Source of the DNA: an uncultured Pelagibacteraceae bacterium
GTDB lineage: Bacteria; Pseudomonadota; Alphaproteobacteria; Pelagibacterales; Pelagibacteraceae
Assembly: GCA_902572155.1 (NCBI GenBank)
Contig: CACGET010000002.1
Coordinates: 1-36,530, forward strand
DNA length: 36,530 nucleotides
Direction: 5' to 3'
Shown here piece by piece: positions 25,536 through 35,321 of the stretch. Position 1 is the stretch's first letter; the number at the start of each line of letters is the position of its first letter. Made by a program: the position numbers and the translations under genes. The notes below the pieces were generated by a model that worked only from the letters and a program-made list of their open reading frames with translations, was not told where the DNA came from and did not search any database.

Positions 25536-27320
25536 TTAAGAGACTAAAGAAGGTTGTTTCTTCATATCTTCTTTATTTATACCAGCAACTTTAACAGGTT
25601 TTTTCATAGCATCTCTTCTAAAAGGTTCACCTAACTCTTGGTTTAAAATTACTTCAATAAATGTTGTAATTCCTTTCTTCTGATCTTCGCATGATTGTTT
25701 GATTGCATTAGTAGTTTCTTCCATGGTTCTGACTGTTACACCTTTTAATCCACAGGCATCAGCCACTTTTGCATAACTCAATTCTGGATCAAGTTCTGTA
25801 CCTACAAAATTATCATCAAACCACAAAGTAGTATTTCTTTTTTCAGCTCCCCATTGATAATTTCTAAAAATTACCATTGATATTGCTGGCCACTCTTCTC
25901 TTGCACATGAACTCATTTCATTCATACTTATTCCAAAAGCACCATCTCCAGCAAATCCTATAACTGGAGTATCTGGACAACCAATTTTTGCTCCAAGTAT
26001 TGATGGAAAACCATAACCACAAGGACCAAATAAACCAGGTGCTAGATATTTTCTTCCTTTTTCAAATGTAGGATATGCATTTCCAATTGCACAATTATTT
26101 CCAATATCACTTGATATAATTACATCTTCGGGCATACCTGCTTGAATTGCTCTCCACGCTTGTCTTGGTGACATTCTATCTATATCTCTTTTTCTTGCTT
26201 CTTTATTCCAAACAGTACCTTCATCATCATCTTCATGATCTAGACTTGATAGTTTTTGTAACCAAGCTGATTTGGTTTGATGAATTAAATCTTTTCTTTT
26301 TTGTCTATCAATATCACCTGCTGTTGGTGAAAGTTGTTCTAATAATTGTTGTGCAACTAATTTTGCATCACCACATATTCCTACAGTAACTTTCTTTGTT
26401 AAACCAATTCTGTCAGAATTCATATCTACTTGAATTATACTTGCATCTTTGGGCCAATAATCCATTCCATATCCTGGTAAAGTTGAAAAAGGGTTTAATC
26501 TTGTACCTAAAGCTAAAACTACATCTGCTTTTTGAATTAATTCCATTCCAGCTTTTGAACCATTGTATCCTAATGGACCTGCAGCTAATGGATGACTTCC
26601 AGGAAAACTGTCATTATGTTGATATCCAGAACATACAGGAGCATCTAATTTTTCAGCAAGTTTCTTACAATCTTCAATAGCGCCACCTATAACAACTCCT
26701 GCACCAGATAAAATTACTGGAAATTTTGCATTTGATAATAAGTCAGCAGCTTTTTTAATTGCATCAACACCACCTGCTTGTCTTTCTAATCTGACTATTG
26801 GAGGTAGATCAATATCAATAACTTGTGTCCAATAATCCCTTGGTACATTTATTTGAGCTGGTGCCGAACCTCTTATAGCTTTTTCAATAACTCTGTTTAA
26901 CACTTCAGCCATTCTTGATGGATCCCTAACTTCTTCTTGGTAACAAACCATATCTTTAAATAAATTCATTTGTTCGACTTCTTGAAAACCACCTTGACCC
27001 ATAGTTTTATTAGCTGCCTGAGGTGTAACTAATAAAAGAGGTGTATGATTCCAGTAAGCTGTTTTAATTGGAGTAACCAATCCAGTTATCCCTGGTCCAT
27101 TTTGGGCTATTACCATAGACATTTTTCCTGTAGCCCTTGTATAACCATCAGCGATAAGTCCACCATTTGTTTCATGAGCAACATCCCAAAAAGTAATTCC
27201 AGCGTCTGGAAAAATATCTGAAATAGGCATAAACGCGGATCCTATAATTCCAAAGGAATGTTCGATACCATGCATTTGTAAGACTTTTACAAACGCTTCC
27301 TCTGTTGTCATTTTTGTCAT
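25536..27320 (-). CDS. xsc: Sulfoacetaldehyde acetyltransferase (ThDP-dependent)
   Basis: MTKMTTEEAFVKVLQMHGIEHSFGIIGSAFMPISDIFPDAGITFWDVAHETNGGLIADGYTRATGKMSMVIAQNGPGITG; start set at 27320 rather than the ORF-track 27455. Confidence 0.93.
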   Translation of the reverse strand: MTKMTTEEAFVKVLQMHGIEHSFGIIGSAFMPISDIFPDAGITFWDVAHETNGGLIADGYTRATGKMSMVIAQNGPGITGLVTPIKTAYWNHTPLLLVTPQAANKTMGQGGFQEVEQMNLFKDMVCYQEEVRDPSRMAEVLNRVIEKAIRGSAPAQINVPRDYWTQVIDIDLPPIVRLERQAGGVDAIKKAADLLSNAKFPVILSGAGVVIGGAIEDCKKLAEKLDAPVCSGYQHNDSFPGSHPLAAGPLGYNGSKAGMELIQKADVVLALGTRLNPFSTLPGYGMDYWPKDASIIQVDMNSDRIGLTKKVTVGICGDAKLVAQQLLEQLSPTAGDIDRQKRKDLIHQTKSAWLQKLSSLDHEDDDEGTVWNKEARKRDIDRMSPRQAWRAIQAGMPEDVIISSDIGNNCAIGNAYPTFEKGRKYLAPGLFGPCGYGFPSILGAKIGCPDTPVIGFAGDGAFGISMNEMSSCAREEWPAISMVIFRNYQWGAEKRNTTLWFDDNFVGTELDPELSYAKVADACGLKGVTVRTMEETTNAIKQSCEDQKKGITTFIEVILNQELGEPFRRDAMKKPVKVAGINKEDMKKQPSLVS

Positions 27321-27366
27321 AATGCTTGATCCTCTATAAAATCTAATATTAAATACTATTATTAAA

Positions 27367-27425
27367 ATTCGTTTGTTAATTTTTGCGATTAATATATAAG
27401 ATTTTGAAAAATTCAAACAAACAAT
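27367..27425. promoter_or_regulatory. Imperfect long inverted repeat in the xsc/suyA divergent intergenic region
   Basis: Left arm ATTCGTTTGTTAATTTTT (27367-27384); right arm AAAAATTCAAACAAACAAT (27407-27425), whose reverse complement is ATTGTTTGTTTGAATTTTT. Confidence 0.5.
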
Positions 27426-27438
27426 TCGACACATAAAT

Positions 27439-27723
27439 ATGGCTACAGATATCATTATTCATGACAAAAAAGACAATGTTGGAGTAGTAGTTATTGAAAA
27501 AATAACTCCTAAGCAGGAATGTGCGTGTTGGATAATGGAAGATGACAGTTCAGCTAACATTCAATCTATGGATGAAATTCCTTTAGGTCACAAAATTGCA
27601 ATGATTGATTTAAATGAGGGCGATACAATCCTTAAATACGGTCATGATATTGGAAAAGTTGTTAAATCAATTAAAAAAGGTGAGCATGTTCATGTTCACA
27701 ATGTAAAAACAAAGAAGTGGTAA
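27439..27723 (+). CDS. suyA: (2R)-sulfolactate sulfo-lyase subunit alpha (UxaA-type SAF domain)
   Basis: 94 aa SAF-like domain ([27 protein letters not shown]) followed by the beta subunit and opposite xsc. Confidence 0.82.
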
Positions 27724-27727
27724 TTAT

Positions 27728-28894
27728 ATGGAAATCCCAAAAAGTTTTTTAGGCTACAAAAGAGAGAATGGAAGAGCAGGAACCAGAAATCATGTAATTA
27801 TTCTTCCAGTTGATGATATTTCAAATGCATGTGCTGAAGCGGTAGCAAATAATATCAAAGGAACAATTGCGCTCCCACACTCATATGGAAGATTGCAATT
27901 TGGTGCTGATTTAGAATTGCACTTTAGAACTATGATAGGAACTGGATGCAACCCAAATGTAGCTGCAGTAGTAGTAATTGGAATTGAGCCTAAATGGACA
28001 AAAAAAATTGTAGATGGAATTGCTAAAACTGGAAAACCAGTAGAAGGATTTCATATAGAACGTACCGGAGATATTGGAACTACAATGAAAGCTTCTAAAA
28101 AAGCTCAAGAATTTGTTATGTGGGCATCTGAAAAACAAAGAGAAGAATGTCCTTTAAGTGATTTATGGATATCAGTTAAGTGTGGAGAGTCAGACACAAC
28201 ATCGGGGTTAGCAGCTAATCCAACAGTTGGAAATTTAATGGATAAACTTGAGCCTCTTGGAGTTCATTTATGTTTTGGTGAAACTTCTGAACTTACAGGT
28301 GCTGAAAATGTTTGTGCAAAAAGAGGTGCAACTCCAGAAGCATCTGAAAAATTTATGAAGACTTGGAATTCTTACAATGATTTTATTTTAAAAGAAGCAA
28401 CAGACGATCTATCAGAAAGTCAACCTACAGCTGGAAATATAGCTGGAGGATTAACTACAATTGAAGAAAAAGCTTTTGGAAACTTTCAAAAAATAGGAAA
28501 TTGTAAATTCATTGATGTCTTAGAACCAGCAGAAGAGCCAACAAAAGGAAAAGGCTTGTACTTTATGGATACTTCCTCAGCGGCAGCGGAATGTGTTACT
28601 TTACAAGCTGCAGCTGGATTTAATATTCATCTTTTTCCAACGGGTCAAGGAAATATAGTTGGAAATCCAATTGAACCAGTTATTAAACTAACAGCTAACC
28701 CTTTGACTGTAAAAGGAATGGGCGAACATATTGATTGTGATGTATCAAAAATACTTACAAGAGAAATGAATATGTCTCAAGCTGGTGATGAATTGATAAA
28801 ATCTACATTAAGGGTAGCCAACGGTAGATTAACTTGCGCTGAAGCTTTAGGTCACAAAGAATTTGTAATGACCAAACTTTATAGAAGTGCTTAA
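27728..28894 (+). CDS. suyB: (2R)-sulfolactate sulfo-lyase subunit beta (UxaA family)
   Basis: [71 protein letters not shown]; neighbourhood supports SuyB over altronate dehydratase. Confidence 0.83.
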
Positions 28895-28911
28895 AAAAAT
28901 TTAATATAATC

Positions 28912-29985
28912 ATGAGTTACAAACAATGCCTGGTAGTAGTACCTGGAATTGTTCTTGCATTTGTTCTTTATACAATTTCACAAGGTTTTAATAATATTCT
29001 TGGTATTGAACTTTTAGGTTATGACAAAAGTCCAATTTCAACTGCTATGTTTGCAATTTTATTTGGAATGTTATTGGGAAACATCTTTAAAATAAGAGAG
29101 AGTTTTATTAAAGGTTTAGATTTTACACAATCATATATATTAAAACTTGGAATTATTTGTCTTGGCATACAGCTTAAACCATTTGAATTTTTAGAATTTG
29201 GTGCAATTGCAATCCCTTTAATAGTGATCTGTATAGTAAGTGTTTTATTGGTTATTAAACTTCTCATCAAAAAACTTAAGATACCAACTAGAATGGCTTA
29301 CTTAATATCTATTGGCAGCACAGTGTGTGGAACTACTGCAATCATGGCGACTGCGCCTGTGATAAAAGCAAATAAAAATGAGGTTTCATATGCTATTGCA
29401 AACATTACTTTATTTGGAATTCTGTCGATGTTGATTTATCCGTATTTTGCAAATTTTTATTTTGATGGAAATTCCTTATTTATAGGTCTATTTTTAGGAA
29501 CATCAATTCACGAAACATCACAAGTTGCTGCTGCTGGGCTAATCTATGATCAACAATTCAATAGTCCTGAAACATTAAATATAGCAACAATCACTAAATT
29601 AATAAGAAACACTTTTTTGGTAATTATGATTCCATTATTTGCATTTTTATATAATAGAAACACTGCTAAGGGGCAAAACTACTCAATTATTAAGATTTTT
29701 CCTTATTTTGTTTTAGGTTTTGTGGCAATGATAATTTTTAGAAATTTAGGTGATCAAGCATTTTTTAACTCAAATAATGAAATTTGGCTAAGTACAGTTG
29801 AAAATATTAAATTGTTTTCAAAAATATTTTTAACAATGGCGATGGCTGCTATAGGACTATCAACCAATCTTAATGACATTAAAAAAATGGGCTATAAACC
29901 TTTTATGGTAGGATTCATTGGAATGGCAACAGTTGGTATTATCAGTATTTTAACTATAGAATTTTATATATATTATTTATTTTAA
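28912..29985 (+). CDS. YeiH/UPF0324 family putative sulfate exporter
   Basis: GMLLGNIFKIRESFIKGLDFTQSYILKLGIICLGIQL, GSTVCGTTAIMATAPVIKA, GTSIHETSQVAAAGLIY. Confidence 0.88.
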   Translation: MSYKQCLVVVPGIVLAFVLYTISQGFNNILGIELLGYDKSPISTAMFAILFGMLLGNIFKIRESFIKGLDFTQSYILKLGIICLGIQLKPFEFLEFGAIAIPLIVICIVSVLLVIKLLIKKLKIPTRMAYLISIGSTVCGTTAIMATAPVIKANKNEVSYAIANITLFGILSMLIYPYFANFYFDGNSLFIGLFLGTSIHETSQVAAAGLIYDQQFNSPETLNIATITKLIRNTFLVIMIPLFAFLYNRNTAKGQNYSIIKIFPYFVLGFVAMIIFRNLGDQAFFNSNNEIWLSTVENIKLFSKIFLTMAMAAIGLSTNLNDIKKMGYKPFMVGFIGMATVGIISILTIEFYIYYLF

Positions 29986-31061
29986 GATTTAACAGCCATC
30001 TTTTTTTTAAAATTAGCAACAAAACGTCTTATGAAGGCTGCGGCTACACCTAAAAAAACTGCAAACATAATTGAAAACAAACCATAGAAAAATGGCATCT
30101 CTTCAGAAAATTTTTGAATAAATAATGAGAAAAAATTTAAATCTGCATCAAGAACTTTATCAATTTTTAAATCTGAGTGTTCTGCAAAAAAAGTATCGTA
30201 TGCAATTGCAATACCAACAACTAATAAAAGAATAGCTAATAAAGCTCTAAGTCCACTACTATTTACTTTTTCTCCTAATTTTTGTCCAACTTGAACACCG
30301 ATAATAGATCCAACAACAAGCATAAAAACTAACATTAAATCAATCGATCCATAGTTAAAAGAATGAAGAAATGTGACTATGACGCTGACAAAGATAGTTA
30401 CAAATAAGGAAGTTCCTGGAACTAGTTTTGTTGGCATTTTAATTATATAAATCATAGCAGGCACTAAAATAAAAGCACCACCTATACCCATTATTGCAGC
30501 AATAAAACCTACTACAAAACCAATTATAATTGGAGTAAAAGCACTTTCATATAATTTAGATTTAGGAAATCTCATTCTAAATGGAAGACCATGTATCCAA
30601 TAATGAACGTGCAATTTTTTTTTCTCCATAAGATTTCTTTTTGCTTTATCAATTTCACCAAGACTCTCCACCAACATCAGTGTTCCAATAATTGCTAAAA
30701 TATACATATAAGCTAAAGAGATAACGGTATCAATTTTACCTAAATCTTGAAAATAAGTAAAAGTATAGATACCAATAGAAGTTCCAATTACACCGCCCAC
30801 AACAATCATAAGTCCCATTTTGTAATCAAGAGTATCTTTTAAATAATGTGTTGTGGATCCTGAAACTGATGTGGCTAAAATATTGTTTGCTTCATTTGCA
30901 ACTGCATAAGCAGGAGGAACTCCTAAGAATATTAAAAAAGGTGTCATTAAAAAACCACCTCCAACTCCAAATAATCCAGAGAGAACTCCAACTATTGCAC
31001 TCAACATTAAAATTTCTATGGGATTAACAAATACTTGAGCTATAGGTAAAAATACTTCCAT
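29982..31061 (-). CDS. TauE/SafE (TSUP) family sulfite/sulfonate exporter
   Basis: GVLSGLFGVGGGFLMTPFLIFLGVPPAYAVANEANNI; second repeat GFVVGFIAAIMGIGGAFILVPAMIYIIKMPTKLVPGTSLF. Confidence 0.9.
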   Translation of the reverse strand: MEVFLPIAQVFVNPIEILMLSAIVGVLSGLFGVGGGFLMTPFLIFLGVPPAYAVANEANNILATSVSGSTTHYLKDTLDYKMGLMIVVGGVIGTSIGIYTFTYFQDLGKIDTVISLAYMYILAIIGTLMLVESLGEIDKAKRNLMEKKKLHVHYWIHGLPFRMRFPKSKLYESAFTPIIIGFVVGFIAAIMGIGGAFILVPAMIYIIKMPTKLVPGTSLFVTIFVSVIVTFLHSFNYGSIDLMLVFMLVVGSIIGVQVGQKLGEKVNSSGLRALLAILLLVVGIAIAYDTFFAEHSDLKIDKVLDADLNFFSLFIQKFSEEMPFFYGLFSIMFAVFLGVAAAFIRRFVANFKKKMAVKS

Positions 31062-31287: not shown

Positions 31288-31638
31288 TTAATAGATCGTA
31301 GCCCCAAAAACTTTTACCACATTATCCTCAACACCAAGAACTAAACGCCCAAGGAATTCTCCTGAAATTTCTTTATTGGTTTGTCTAATAAGGACAGTGA
31401 TGTGTACTCCTCTTCTTAAGCAACCGAATGGCTCAAAGGTTTCATGAAGATTTGTGATTATCTTGTTGTTAGCCCATTGTTTACCAAGTTCTACTTCATT
31501 TGCTCCAAAAAGCATTTGAGTTGAAAAATCTTTTGTAAAACCACCGTAATCTTTAAGATTAGATGACCTAACTAGATTCTCCCATATTGGTTTAGCTAAT
31601 TCAAATACTTCATCGTCAGTTTTTGATAAAATATCCAT
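31288..31638 (-). CDS. 116-aa protein of unknown function directly downstream of aprA; possible NTF2/SnoaL-like fold
   Basis: Starts 20 bp after the aprA stop; pattern ELAKPIWENLVRSSNLKDYGGFTKDFS...GRLVLGVEDNVVKVFGATIY. Confidence 0.8.
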   Translation of the reverse strand: MDILSKTDDEVFELAKPIWENLVRSSNLKDYGGFTKDFSTQMLFGANEVELGKQWANNKIITNLHETFEPFGCLRRGVHITVLIRQTNKEISGEFLGRLVLGVEDNVVKVFGATIY

Positions 31639-31658: not shown

Positions 31659-33518
31659 TTAAGATGCTTTTTTCTTCTCGTTCTCGTCTACTATATGGTA
31701 CACAGGGACTTTCTCCATACTAAACTTACCAGTTTTTGGATCTCTTCTAGAAACTGTTAAACAGTGCCAATTATCATCATCTAGTTTCATATGATCTCCA
31801 CGATAATAGTAACCTGGCCATCTAGTCTCTTCCCTAAACATAGTATGTTCTGTTACACATTGAGAAGTTATAGCTCTATGCTTAAGCTCCCAAGCTCTCA
31901 TTAATTGGTGATAATCCTCTGCTCCAACATTTTCAAGGTCTTCTTCTAGCCAAGCTAACAGTTCTAGGCCTCTTTTAAGCATATTTGCGTTTGTCATGTA
32001 ATTTGTTGCTATACCACCTACATATTCATCCATAATTCTTTGTAAACGTTGTAAGCCTTGAATTGGAGATATGTAACTTGGAGAAACTGTTCCTCCAGTA
32101 ATCTCGTTTTGAGCCACTGTATATGTTTCTAATGGTTTGTAGACTTTTGTCTTGAAATCTTCGCATTGTTTGTCTGAAACCTTTAAACCTTCAGCTTTTT
32201 TATCTTCTATATATTTAACCGCTGCTTTTGCTGCCAGTCTACCTTCTGTAAAAGATCCTGATGAAAACTTATGTGCACTACCACCAACTGTATCTCCAGC
32301 ACCAAATAAACCATCAATTGTCAGCATTCTGTTATAACCCCAGAAATATTCTGGTGGAGATAGATCTTCAGGACCACTAACCCATGCCCCAGAACATGTA
32401 GCATGTGAGCCCATAACATATGGCTCAGAAGTTGTAAGTTCTGGATTTGTGTATTTAGGATCTATATTTTGAGAAGCCCAAACTACAGCCTGACCTACAG
32501 TCATTCCTAAGAAATTTTCCCAACCAACTGTTTCTAAATGTGGATCTTGAAAAGCTTCAGTAGTAACCATATGAATTGGTCCACCACCTGCCATAGTTTC
32601 TTGAATAAATGCATGATTTCTTAAACAAGTCGGTGTTGGATGATGATCAATATATTCTCCCACCAATTCTTTTGTTTGATCATACCATTTTTTTTCATAG
32701 TTCTCACCATTGGCGTTTTGAGTATAAGTTTTTAAATGTAAAAAATAGGCTCCAACTGGACCATATCCATCTTTAAATCTACATAAAACAATTCTATTTT
32801 CCATTTGAGTCATTTTTGCTCCAGCAGCAATAGGTAATGCATAAGCTGAACCATTACTCCAAGGTGCATACCAGGTTCTTCCCATTCCTTCGCCAACAGC
32901 TCTAGGTTTAAATATGTGAGAAGCACCTCCAGCTGCAACTATCACTGCTTTTGCTCTAAAGACATGAAAATCTCCAGTTCTCATATTAAATCCGACTGCT
33001 CCGCCTACTCTATTTTCTTGGGCCTCATCCATTAAGAGATGAGTTATCATAATTCTGTTGTATATTTTATCTGCTGATTTTTTTGCTGCTTCAGCAACAA
33101 TTGGTTTATAACTTTCACCATGAATCATTATCTGCCATTTACCCTCTCTAAGATATCTGCCAGTCTCCTCATTTTTCATCATAGGAAGACCCCACTCATC
33201 AAACATATGAACAGTTGAGTCTACATGACGAGCCATATCATAACCTAAATCCTCTCTTACCATTCCCATCAAGTCATTTCGTGCATATCGCACATGATCC
33301 TCAGGTTGGTTTTCACCCCATTGCATTCCCATGTAACAGTTTATTGCATAAAGACCTTGGGCAACCGCACCACTTCTATCTATATTAGCTTTTTCAACAC
33401 AGATAATTTTCATGTCTCTACCCCAGTGTCTAGCTTCAAAGGTTGCACCAGTACCAGCCATACCACCACCAACTACTAAGACATCACAATCTTCATAATG
33501 AGTTTTATGCTTAGCCAT
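31659..33518 (-). CDS. aprA: Adenylylsulfate (APS) reductase subunit alpha
   Basis: DVLVVGGGMAGTGATFEARHWG FAD motif, IHGESYKPIVAEAAKK, CVTEHTMFREETRWPGYYYRGDHMKLDDDNWHCL. Confidence 0.96.
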   Translation of the reverse strand: MAKHKTHYEDCDVLVVGGGMAGTGATFEARHWGRDMKIICVEKANIDRSGAVAQGLYAINCYMGMQWGENQPEDHVRYARNDLMGMVREDLGYDMARHVDSTVHMFDEWGLPMMKNEETGRYLREGKWQIMIHGESYKPIVAEAAKKSADKIYNRIMITHLLMDEAQENRVGGAVGFNMRTGDFHVFRAKAVIVAAGGASHIFKPRAVGEGMGRTWYAPWSNGSAYALPIAAGAKMTQMENRIVLCRFKDGYGPVGAYFLHLKTYTQNANGENYEKKWYDQTKELVGEYIDHHPTPTCLRNHAFIQETMAGGGPIHMVTTEAFQDPHLETVGWENFLGMTVGQAVVWASQNIDPKYTNPELTTSEPYVMGSHATCSGAWVSGPEDLSPPEYFWGYNRMLTIDGLFGAGDTVGGSAHKFSSGSFTEGRLAAKAAVKYIEDKKAEGLKVSDKQCEDFKTKVYKPLETYTVAQNEITGGTVSPSYISPIQGLQRLQRIMDEYVGGIATNYMTNANMLKRGLELLAWLEEDLENVGAEDYHQLMRAWELKHRAITSQCVTEHTMFREETRWPGYYYRGDHMKLDDDNWHCLTVSRRDPKTGKFSMEKVPVYHIVDENEKKKAS

Positions 33519-33988
33519 TAATAGTAGACTCCTTTTTTAAAAGTTTCTTTTGGAACAGAGGGTAATTCTCCATCTATATTTAATCCCTCTGGTTCGGAAT
33601 ATAATCTTTGTGAATTAATTTCACCTTGTTTTATTTTTTCACCTTCAGCAAGTTTTGGAATAAATTTTCCCCAAGGTTTTGTAGTAATTGGAGAAACAAA
33701 ATCTTTTTCTGTTCCATTTCGAAATTTAATTTTCCATGAAATAGTGCCTTTCTCCTCTTCTCTTCTTACTCGAACACTATGACCCATTGGAGCAAAATCA
33801 GCATAACCTCTTACATCAATTGCATGATTAGGACATGCTTTCACGCATGAATAACATTCCCAACAAAAATTTGGTTCTATATTTTTTGCACGTCTAATAT
33901 TTTCATCAATATGCATTATATCTGATGGACAAATATCCACGCAATGACCACAGCCATCACATCTAGTCATATATACAAATGTTGACAT
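33518..33988 (-). CDS. aprB: Adenylylsulfate reductase subunit beta (2x[4Fe-4S])
   Basis: MSTFVYMTRCDGCGHCVDICPSDIMHID, NFCWECYSCVKACPNHAIDVRGYADFAPMGHSV. Confidence 0.96.
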   Translation of the reverse strand: MSTFVYMTRCDGCGHCVDICPSDIMHIDENIRRAKNIEPNFCWECYSCVKACPNHAIDVRGYADFAPMGHSVRVRREEEKGTISWKIKFRNGTEKDFVSPITTKPWGKFIPKLAEGEKIKQGEINSQRLYSEPEGLNIDGELPSVPKETFKKGVYY

Positions 33989-34022: not shown

Positions 34023-34817
34023 TTAATAGTGTTTTGGCTCTTCTCTTTTTATACCTAGGCCAAATTGCTCAGGTGCATCAGCAGGTGGTGGTAAATTATC
34101 TCTTGATCCATCAGCTTCTGCTAGATTTTTTTGAATTGCTGCTCCAGGTTTATAAAACATATGTGCAAATTTGGACCAGTACACTCCTCCAAATAAAACT
34201 AAATTTGAAAGAACATAAAGTGCTAAAAATAAATATGATAATCCAAATTGACCATTAAATTGTGTATAAGACCAAAGCAAAGCAAAAGTTGAACAAGCTA
34301 ATAATGCTAAAACAAATAAATCTGCTTTAATAATTCTATACCAAGGGTGTGCTTCAGCAGAAACATCTACTCTTAAAAAAAACCAAAACCAATATCCTCC
34401 TAAACAAGTTAATATGGCACCCGCATGCCATAACATCGACCAAGTTGATGATGATGCTTTGTCTACACCAGTGTAACTAAAAATTAATACTGCAGTTGAA
34501 ATCCAAAACAATATAGTGCCATACATTCCCATGACATGTGAAAGTCTTCTTTTACCAAAACCAAGTTCTGAAGTTGTTCCAATATCATGAACAACAGTTT
34601 TAGCTATTATAGAAACTTTTTCACCTGAACCAATTTCTCTAGTAGCTTGAAGCTTTGCTTTTTTTGCATTGTTAAAAAAGTAAGTAATATTTTTGTGATG
34701 TATCATCTGAATGATAGTTCCCATTGCGATCAAAACTACCATAGCAATAATAAAACCTTGCATTGCTAAAGGAGATACTGTTTCAGCTAAAACAGAAAAT
34801 GGATTTAATTGTAACAT
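34023..34817 (-). CDS. aprM: AprM-like membrane protein (putative APS reductase membrane anchor)
   Basis: Polytopic protein with conserved-looking His in KRRLSHVMGMYG, MLWHAG, SKFAHMFYKPG; immediately upstream of aprBA. Confidence 0.75.
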   Translation of the reverse strand: MLQLNPFSVLAETVSPLAMQGFIIAMVVLIAMGTIIQMIHHKNITYFFNNAKKAKLQATREIGSGEKVSIIAKTVVHDIGTTSELGFGKRRLSHVMGMYGTILFWISTAVLIFSYTGVDKASSSTWSMLWHAGAILTCLGGYWFWFFLRVDVSAEAHPWYRIIKADLFVLALLACSTFALLWSYTQFNGQFGLSYLFLALYVLSNLVLFGGVYWSKFAHMFYKPGAAIQKNLAEADGSRDNLPPPADAPEQFGLGIKREEPKHY

Positions 34818-34925: not shown

Positions 34926-35321
34926 TTAACGTTTGTAGTGTTGTTTTTTAGGAATAACAGAGCGCACACCCCCTTGAGGATTGTCAACATCACCTTCCCT
35001 TCTAGGAATCAAGTGAATATGACAATGCATAATTGATTGACCAGCTGTTTTTTCTATATTAGAGCCAACATTAAATCCTTTAACAGTATTGTCTTTAATG
35101 ATAATTTCCTCTTTAACAATTTTAATTAACTCATTGCACGCAATCAATTCATTATTACTTAGATCAAAGTAGCTTTTAATATGTCTTTTAGGAATAATTA
35201 AACAATGATCATCTGAAACAGGATAGGTGTCATAACTTGCATAAGCTAAATCATTTTCATGAGCCACACCACTTTCTTTTATATTACAAAATAAACAAGG
35301 ATTGTTGGGGTCTCTTATCAT
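34926..35321 (-). CDS. HIT family hydrolase
   Basis: CLFCNIKESG, HCLIIPKRHIKSYFDL, GQSIMHCHIHLIPRREGD (HxHxH triad region). Confidence 0.93.
   Translation of the reverse strand: MIRDPNNPCLFCNIKESGVAHENDLAYASYDTYPVSDDHCLIIPKRHIKSYFDLSNNELIACNELIKIVKEEIIIKDNTVKGFNVGSNIEKTAGQSIMHCHIHLIPRREGDVDNPQGGVRSVIPKKQHYKR

Follow-up and report, generated by a model that had tools for sequence, protein, structure and literature searches.

A predicted NTF2-like protein encoded directly downstream of aprA as a candidate partner of the AprM-type (SOB lineage I) APS reductase

The dissimilatory APS reductase (Apr) of SOB occurs in two lineages which, according to the available parts of the published description, are accompanied by aprM (lineage I) and by qmo (lineage II) (PMC2211403), and SAR11 has been assigned to lineage I (PMC5864207). 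As far as the accessible text of the respective accounts extends, the lineage-I operon of organisms such as Allochromatium vinosum and Pelagibacter comprises three genes, aprM-aprB-aprA, and the two downstream genes considered here, ORF116 and a SlyD-like FKBP, are not discussed (PMC2211403, PMC3779200). ORF116 also goes unmentioned in the accessible sections of the wider set of aprMBA accounts (PMC2211403, PMC3779200, PMC8269255, PMC10504309). A literature search for aprA together with FKBP or NTF2 gave no result; most subscription journals lie outside its coverage, and an earlier description is possible. In A. vinosum, the locus tag following aprA (Alvin_1121) is Alvin_1122, a 'conserved hypothetical protein' regulated on pyrite (PMC11267869). 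The AprM-type enzyme belongs to the core of SAR11, one of the most abundant bacterial groups of the ocean, and is found in many sulfur oxidisers, but its assembly and the destination of its electrons represent an open question, the redox partner being called unknown in those parts of the literature that were available. Among flavoproteins of AprA's superfamily, SdhA and FrdA have small dedicated helpers, the SdhE-type assembly factors, which serve covalent flavinylation; in AprA, by contrast, FAD binding is described as non-covalent. As a small dedicated helper of a flavoprotein, ORF116 would resemble SdhE, but its predicted fold differs.

The locus described here lies in a 36,530-bp stretch of Pelagibacteraceae DNA (the window), which belongs to contig C2 of an 839-kb assembly that is about 69% complete. 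Its aprM-aprB-aprA order and AprA type are as in the lineage-I operons of A. vinosum and Pelagibacter, within the accessible text of PMC2211403 and PMC3779200. All four genes are located on the minus strand: aprM (34023-34817), assigned by position and by similarity common to all lineage-I loci read, matching no Pfam family and showing weak similarity to QmoC (NCBIfam E = 0.0067, far below cut-off); aprB (33518-33988; TIGR02060, 184 bits against a cut-off of 135.65; PF12139); aprA of the lineage I type (31659-33518; TIGR02061, 987 bits against a cut-off of 641.75); and ORF116 (31288-31638 including the stop codon), supported by its open frame, conservation, dN/dS and an AlphaFold2 model. The coding part of ORF116 occupies 31291-31638, with an ATG start, a TAA stop at 31288-31290 and 116 codons for amino acids. 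The aprA stop codon ends at 31659 and the ORF116 ATG begins at 31638, leaving a 20-bp gap on one strand, and the ORF list and the position of the aprA stop agree with the original prediction in coordinates, strand, length and spacing. From this 20-bp spacing we infer co-transcription of ORF116 with aprMBA, as well as the translational linkage to aprA named in the original prediction; the ORF116/apr region of the window holds no terminator- or promoter-like excess. Across the 80 named SAR11 loci the gap always measures 17-27 bp; it shrinks to 0 bp in four relatives (L037, L038, L178 and L181) and becomes a 4-bp overlap (ATGA) in L039, and it is mostly about 100-290 bp in non-SAR11 loci. ORF116 is a real gene under strong purifying selection: 152 of 197 Pelagibacterales genomes carry a single copy, always with an intact frame of full length unless a contig end cuts it, and its median dN/dS is 0.028 (1015 usable pairs) compared to 0.016 for aprA at the same loci.

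Within Pelagibacterales, the presence of ORF116 follows that of aprA. Of the 197 genomes, 176 yielded an aprA match at E ≤ 0.001; 20 of these matches are weak (E about 1e-4 to 1e-6), as might be expected from related flavoproteins, and were set aside, leaving 156. ORF116 was detected in 152 of these and in none of the 41 genomes without aprA. As for the four aprA-positive genomes lacking it, aprA of G195 runs off the contig end, as was checked, and in the other three the aprA match is weak and evidently partial. ORF116 is directly 3' of aprA and co-directional in 80 of 80 named SAR11 loci, and the order aprM-aprB-aprA-orf116-tauE-yeiH-xsc is found in 61 of them. Searches of phage records returned no ORF116 relative, and a 'viral' relative from IMG/VR (L001) was discarded, as only its first ~90 bp (L001:1-90) correspond to SAR11 ORF116 before the frame enters unrelated phage-like DNA; it is probably a chimeric contig end and not a phage-borne gene.

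Outside SAR11, 399 Pseudomonadota genomes were searched for aprA with TIGR02061, the flanks were read, and the loci were divided by phmmer score to SAR11 AprA into a lineage-I group (>1040 bits) and a sulfate-reducer-type, lineage-II group (<700 bits). The two groups match SOB lineage I (aprM) and SOB lineage II (qmo) of PMC2211403, as defined in the accessible part of that work, the lineage-II loci also being without aprM. In this phylum sample, an ORF116 ortholog is located directly downstream in 8 of 8 lineage-I loci, window included, and in 0 of 22 lineage-II aprA loci; two genomes, G551 and G490, carry both AprA types, with ORF116 only beside that of lineage I. Of 215 gammaproteobacterial genomes, 27 have lineage-I aprA, defined by at least 69% identity to a lineage-I query, and ORF116 occurs in 25 of these; the 36 genomes with lineage-II aprA only are all without it. 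Neither aprM, nor FKBP, nor ORF116 was found in 27 lineage-II loci. Allowing for one IS insertion, ORF116 is adjacent to and co-directional with lineage-I aprA in 36 of 36 high-scoring loci, the seemingly unlinked ORF116 of G1023, a complete gammaproteobacterial genome, being explained by an IS3-type transposase (L228:5395-6225) between the two genes. Evolutionary distances of ORF116 and AprA correlate (r = 0.90), a correlation that also reflects shared species history. Hence, ORF116 is near-exclusively linked to lineage-I aprMBA across alpha- and gammaproteobacteria and one further class of Pseudomonadota, and the neighbourhood analysis proposed with the original prediction finds close orthologs tied to aprA in essentially every genome.

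These distributions also bear on whether ORF116 is a passenger, or an unrelated gene that operon inertia has left next to aprA. In favour of this, gene order is conserved over the whole neighbourhood (the 61 of 80 loci above) in the compact genomes of SAR11, but the position of ORF116 is kept in distant alpha- and gammaproteobacteria and in the further class, where the neighbours are otherwise different, and ORF116 is absent whenever lineage-I aprA is absent. The presence/absence data thereby largely refute this explanation, which we consider highly improbable.

The linkage has genuine exceptions. In G1005 and G1018, aprM, aprB and aprA are present with neither ORF116 nor FKBP in the flanks; ORF116 is hence not found in every lineage-I locus, aprMBA can evidently do without it, and its presence is usual rather than universal. 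Conversely, distant relatives (profile E 1e-7 to 1e-22) occur away from apr in gammaproteobacteria (L216-L225) in varied contexts, in L217 and L218 between RND-efflux genes and a TldD/PmbA-like gene, and none of them has a convincing Pfam match. The fold family is therefore not intrinsically an Apr factor. Homologs without apr association had been named beforehand as evidence against the original prediction; for close orthologs, which are apr-tied, the predicted association stands, and for the distant paralogs it does not. Comparison of the two sets separates family-wide residues, including A15, P17, F38, R76 and G93, from those largely restricted to apr-linked proteins, namely the G45-x-N47-E48 motif, Q54, G97, R98, G102 and F111, which represent first candidates for Apr contact. 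The single cysteine, C73, is conserved in SAR11-like loci only, most other orthologs lacking it; this speaks against a redox carrier, and a redox role via this residue was rejected.

Single-sequence and profile searches of ORF116 against Pfam, NCBIfam, PHROG and PDB sequences gave no family or chain match, and no score exceeded the curated cut-off of any Pfam, NCBIfam or PHROG family. Profile matches to HSP90 and CD28 chains (E 0.02-1.5) were regarded as chance, and so were Pfam matches above E 0.02, which fell on assorted unrelated families. This agrees with the original prediction, in which no named family was recognised, and a match to an unrelated enzyme family, which would have weighed against the original prediction, was found in none of the four collections. 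The AlphaFold2 model (mean pLDDT 73.7, pTM 0.68) places a long N-terminal helix and a second helix before four antiparallel strands in a sheet; residues 30-57 are poorly resolved, likely because the underlying alignment held close relatives only (42 sequences, 83-98% identity). The best 50 PDB matches listed by Foldseek are all NTF2-like, SnoaL-like, ketosteroid-isomerase-like, CaMKII hub, cystatin-like or designed curved-sheet proteins, the best with probabilities up to 0.99 and E-values of 0.005-0.09 (lowest 0.0046), none at E ≤ 0.001. Topology and structural matches agree in suggesting a cone-like alpha+beta fold with a curved antiparallel sheet packed on helices, although at E ≥ 0.0046 and with a poorly modelled middle segment. 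The small NTF2/SnoaL-like alpha+beta fold proposed originally is supported by these models, and given the range of E-values we accept NTF2-like as the likely fold and not as proven family membership. Like the NTF2-like and SnoaL-like proteins 3b7c, 4ovm (SgcJ), 4u13 and 6d63 (AtzH), ORF116 is predicted to have a helix-helix-beta(4) arrangement in about 110-130 residues; unlike them, it is without a sequence-level match, leaves residues 30-57 unresolved in the model and has its own conserved motifs, G-x-N-E, RR and G-E-x-L-G-R-L-V-L-G.

Downstream of ORF116, the usual non-SAR11 order is aprM-aprB-aprA-orf116-SlyD-like FKBP. A SlyD-family FKBP of ~170 residues directly follows ORF116 in the non-SAR11-like lineage-I loci examined (L155-L157, L158-L161 and L162-L163), assigned by phmmer to solved SlyD structures (E 1e-17) and by NCBIfam SlyD-type models (E 1e-15 to 1e-18, below cut-off). 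With the same query, a SlyD-like FKBP was detected in 0 of 147 SAR11 genomes and in 11 of 12 genomes chosen as positive control. To judge by gene content, SAR11 has kept ORF116 and lost the FKBP, and the argument from a chaperone neighbour is consequently inapplicable in the window itself. Five gammaproteobacterial genomes of 1.0-1.1 Mb (G885, G983, G1091, G1121 and G1183; L230-L234) have a SAR11-like aprMBA-orf116 arrangement, with AprA 83-86% identical to that of SAR11 and an ORF116 that is also SAR11-like; in three of them a diverged SlyD-like gene lies ~5 kb away or less, beyond the other end of the operon or on the opposite strand. As AprA and ORF116 give the same affiliation, these loci fit a transfer of all four genes together, which suggests that the apr operon moved between SAR11 and streamlined gammaproteobacteria.

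The strongest statement that the data allow is that ORF116 functions together with the AprM-type APS reductase rather than with every kind of APS reductase, probably as a dedicated helper or small subunit of the lineage-I enzyme. More specifically, we propose, as a reading that we regard as evenly poised between right and wrong, that it is an NTF2-like dedicated assembly/stability partner of the AprM-type (SOB lineage I) APS reductase. ORF116 would bind AprA/AprB as an assembly or stabilising partner and help the flavo-iron-sulfur AprBA to form, or to keep contact with the AprM membrane anchor, thus enabling AprBA to oxidise sulfite released from sulfonates, xsc/suy genes being next to apr in SAR11. 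In the common non-SAR11 arrangement, it may work next to the SlyD-family folding helper encoded by the next gene, and this recurrent neighbour favours assembly.

Alternatively, a pocket of ORF116 may bind or convert a small anionic pathway ligand (sulfite, APS or AMP) in substrate or product handling. Ten polar or basic residues (S26, N27, Y31, N47, E48, Q54, R75, R76, T81 and R98) are nearly invariant in 87 distinct orthologs, and the fold family is rich in pocket enzymes, but neither a catalytic signature of characterised SnoaL/KSI families nor a Pfam or NCBIfam match was found. As lineage-II Apr makes the same products and is never accompanied by ORF116, an AprM-type-specific role in assembly, stability or docking is likelier than general product handling, and we regard the ligand proposal as unlikely. 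ORF116 might instead be a stable small structural subunit of an AprMBA complex, for instance one that docks AprBA to AprM. Oligomeric scaffolds are often built from NTF2-like folds, NTF2-like beta subunits occur in ring-hydroxylating dioxygenases, and linkage to the AprM-type enzyme only, never to the Qmo-linked type, fits such a role. The lineage-I AprB docking surface is also different, with an extra acidic loop proposed, in the accessible text, to contact AprM (PMC2211403). However, ORF116 orthologs are mostly acidic (pI 4.5-6.6 in most) and so not an obvious partner for this loop, and the idea of a basic counterpart was rejected on that ground. Published purifications are moreover described as AprBA, with no third soluble subunit reported in the parts available, and the two operons lacking ORF116 argue against a simple subunit role, which by analogy is conceivable and in our view rather improbable. 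A broader version, which we offer as speculative and hold to be rather unlikely, would make ORF116 an integral fourth component (AprM-AprB-AprA-ORF116), a docking or gating subunit helping to set the route of electrons from the enzyme to their acceptor, and the founder of a new protein family, mostly tied to a dedicated SlyD-type folding helper.

Returning to the assembly/stability partner that we prefer, a need for ORF116 would, if true, explain possible difficulty in making active lineage-I AprBA from aprBA or aprMBA alone. As a small conserved gene tracking one enzyme type only, ORF116 offers a concrete handle on the AprM-type APS reductase, and it can already serve to mark lineage-I apr loci in genomes.

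The region surrounding apr permits some additional observations. A sulfonate module lies beside apr at 25536-31061 of the window and comprises xsc (25536-27455, minus strand), two plus-strand ORFs resembling a split altronate-dehydratase-type sulfolactate sulfo-lyase SuyA/SuyB (27439-27723 and 27728-28894), a YeiH-family transporter (28912-29985, plus strand) and TauE (29982-31061, minus strand). The listed xsc ORF carries an N-terminal surplus of ~45 residues ahead of the conserved domain and runs into the start of the opposite-strand gene; the true xsc start is probably internal to it. Upstream of aprM, the window encodes a HIT-domain protein (34926-35321, minus strand; PF01230, motif HCHIH); in 66 of 67 testable SAR11 loci such a gene precedes aprM on the same strand, at 108-123 bp in nearly all. 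Proteins of the HIT family can split APS into AMP and sulfate. Fifteen aprA-bearing SAR11 genomes, the incomplete genome of the window among them, were tested for ATP sulfurylase, which was found in two and in none of the other 13. The HIT protein may be a candidate APS sulfohydrolase/phosphorylase that removes AprBA-made APS, and may be how SAR11 disposes of APS without Sat. Finally, genes for calcineurin-like metallophosphoesterases are repeatedly found close to apr in both lineages (L159:2703-3461, L161:1146-1964, L163:9494-10258, L164:1635-2447, L237:5055-5828 and L230:7146-7667), beginning 3 bp after ORF116 in L230 and directly after aprA in L237.
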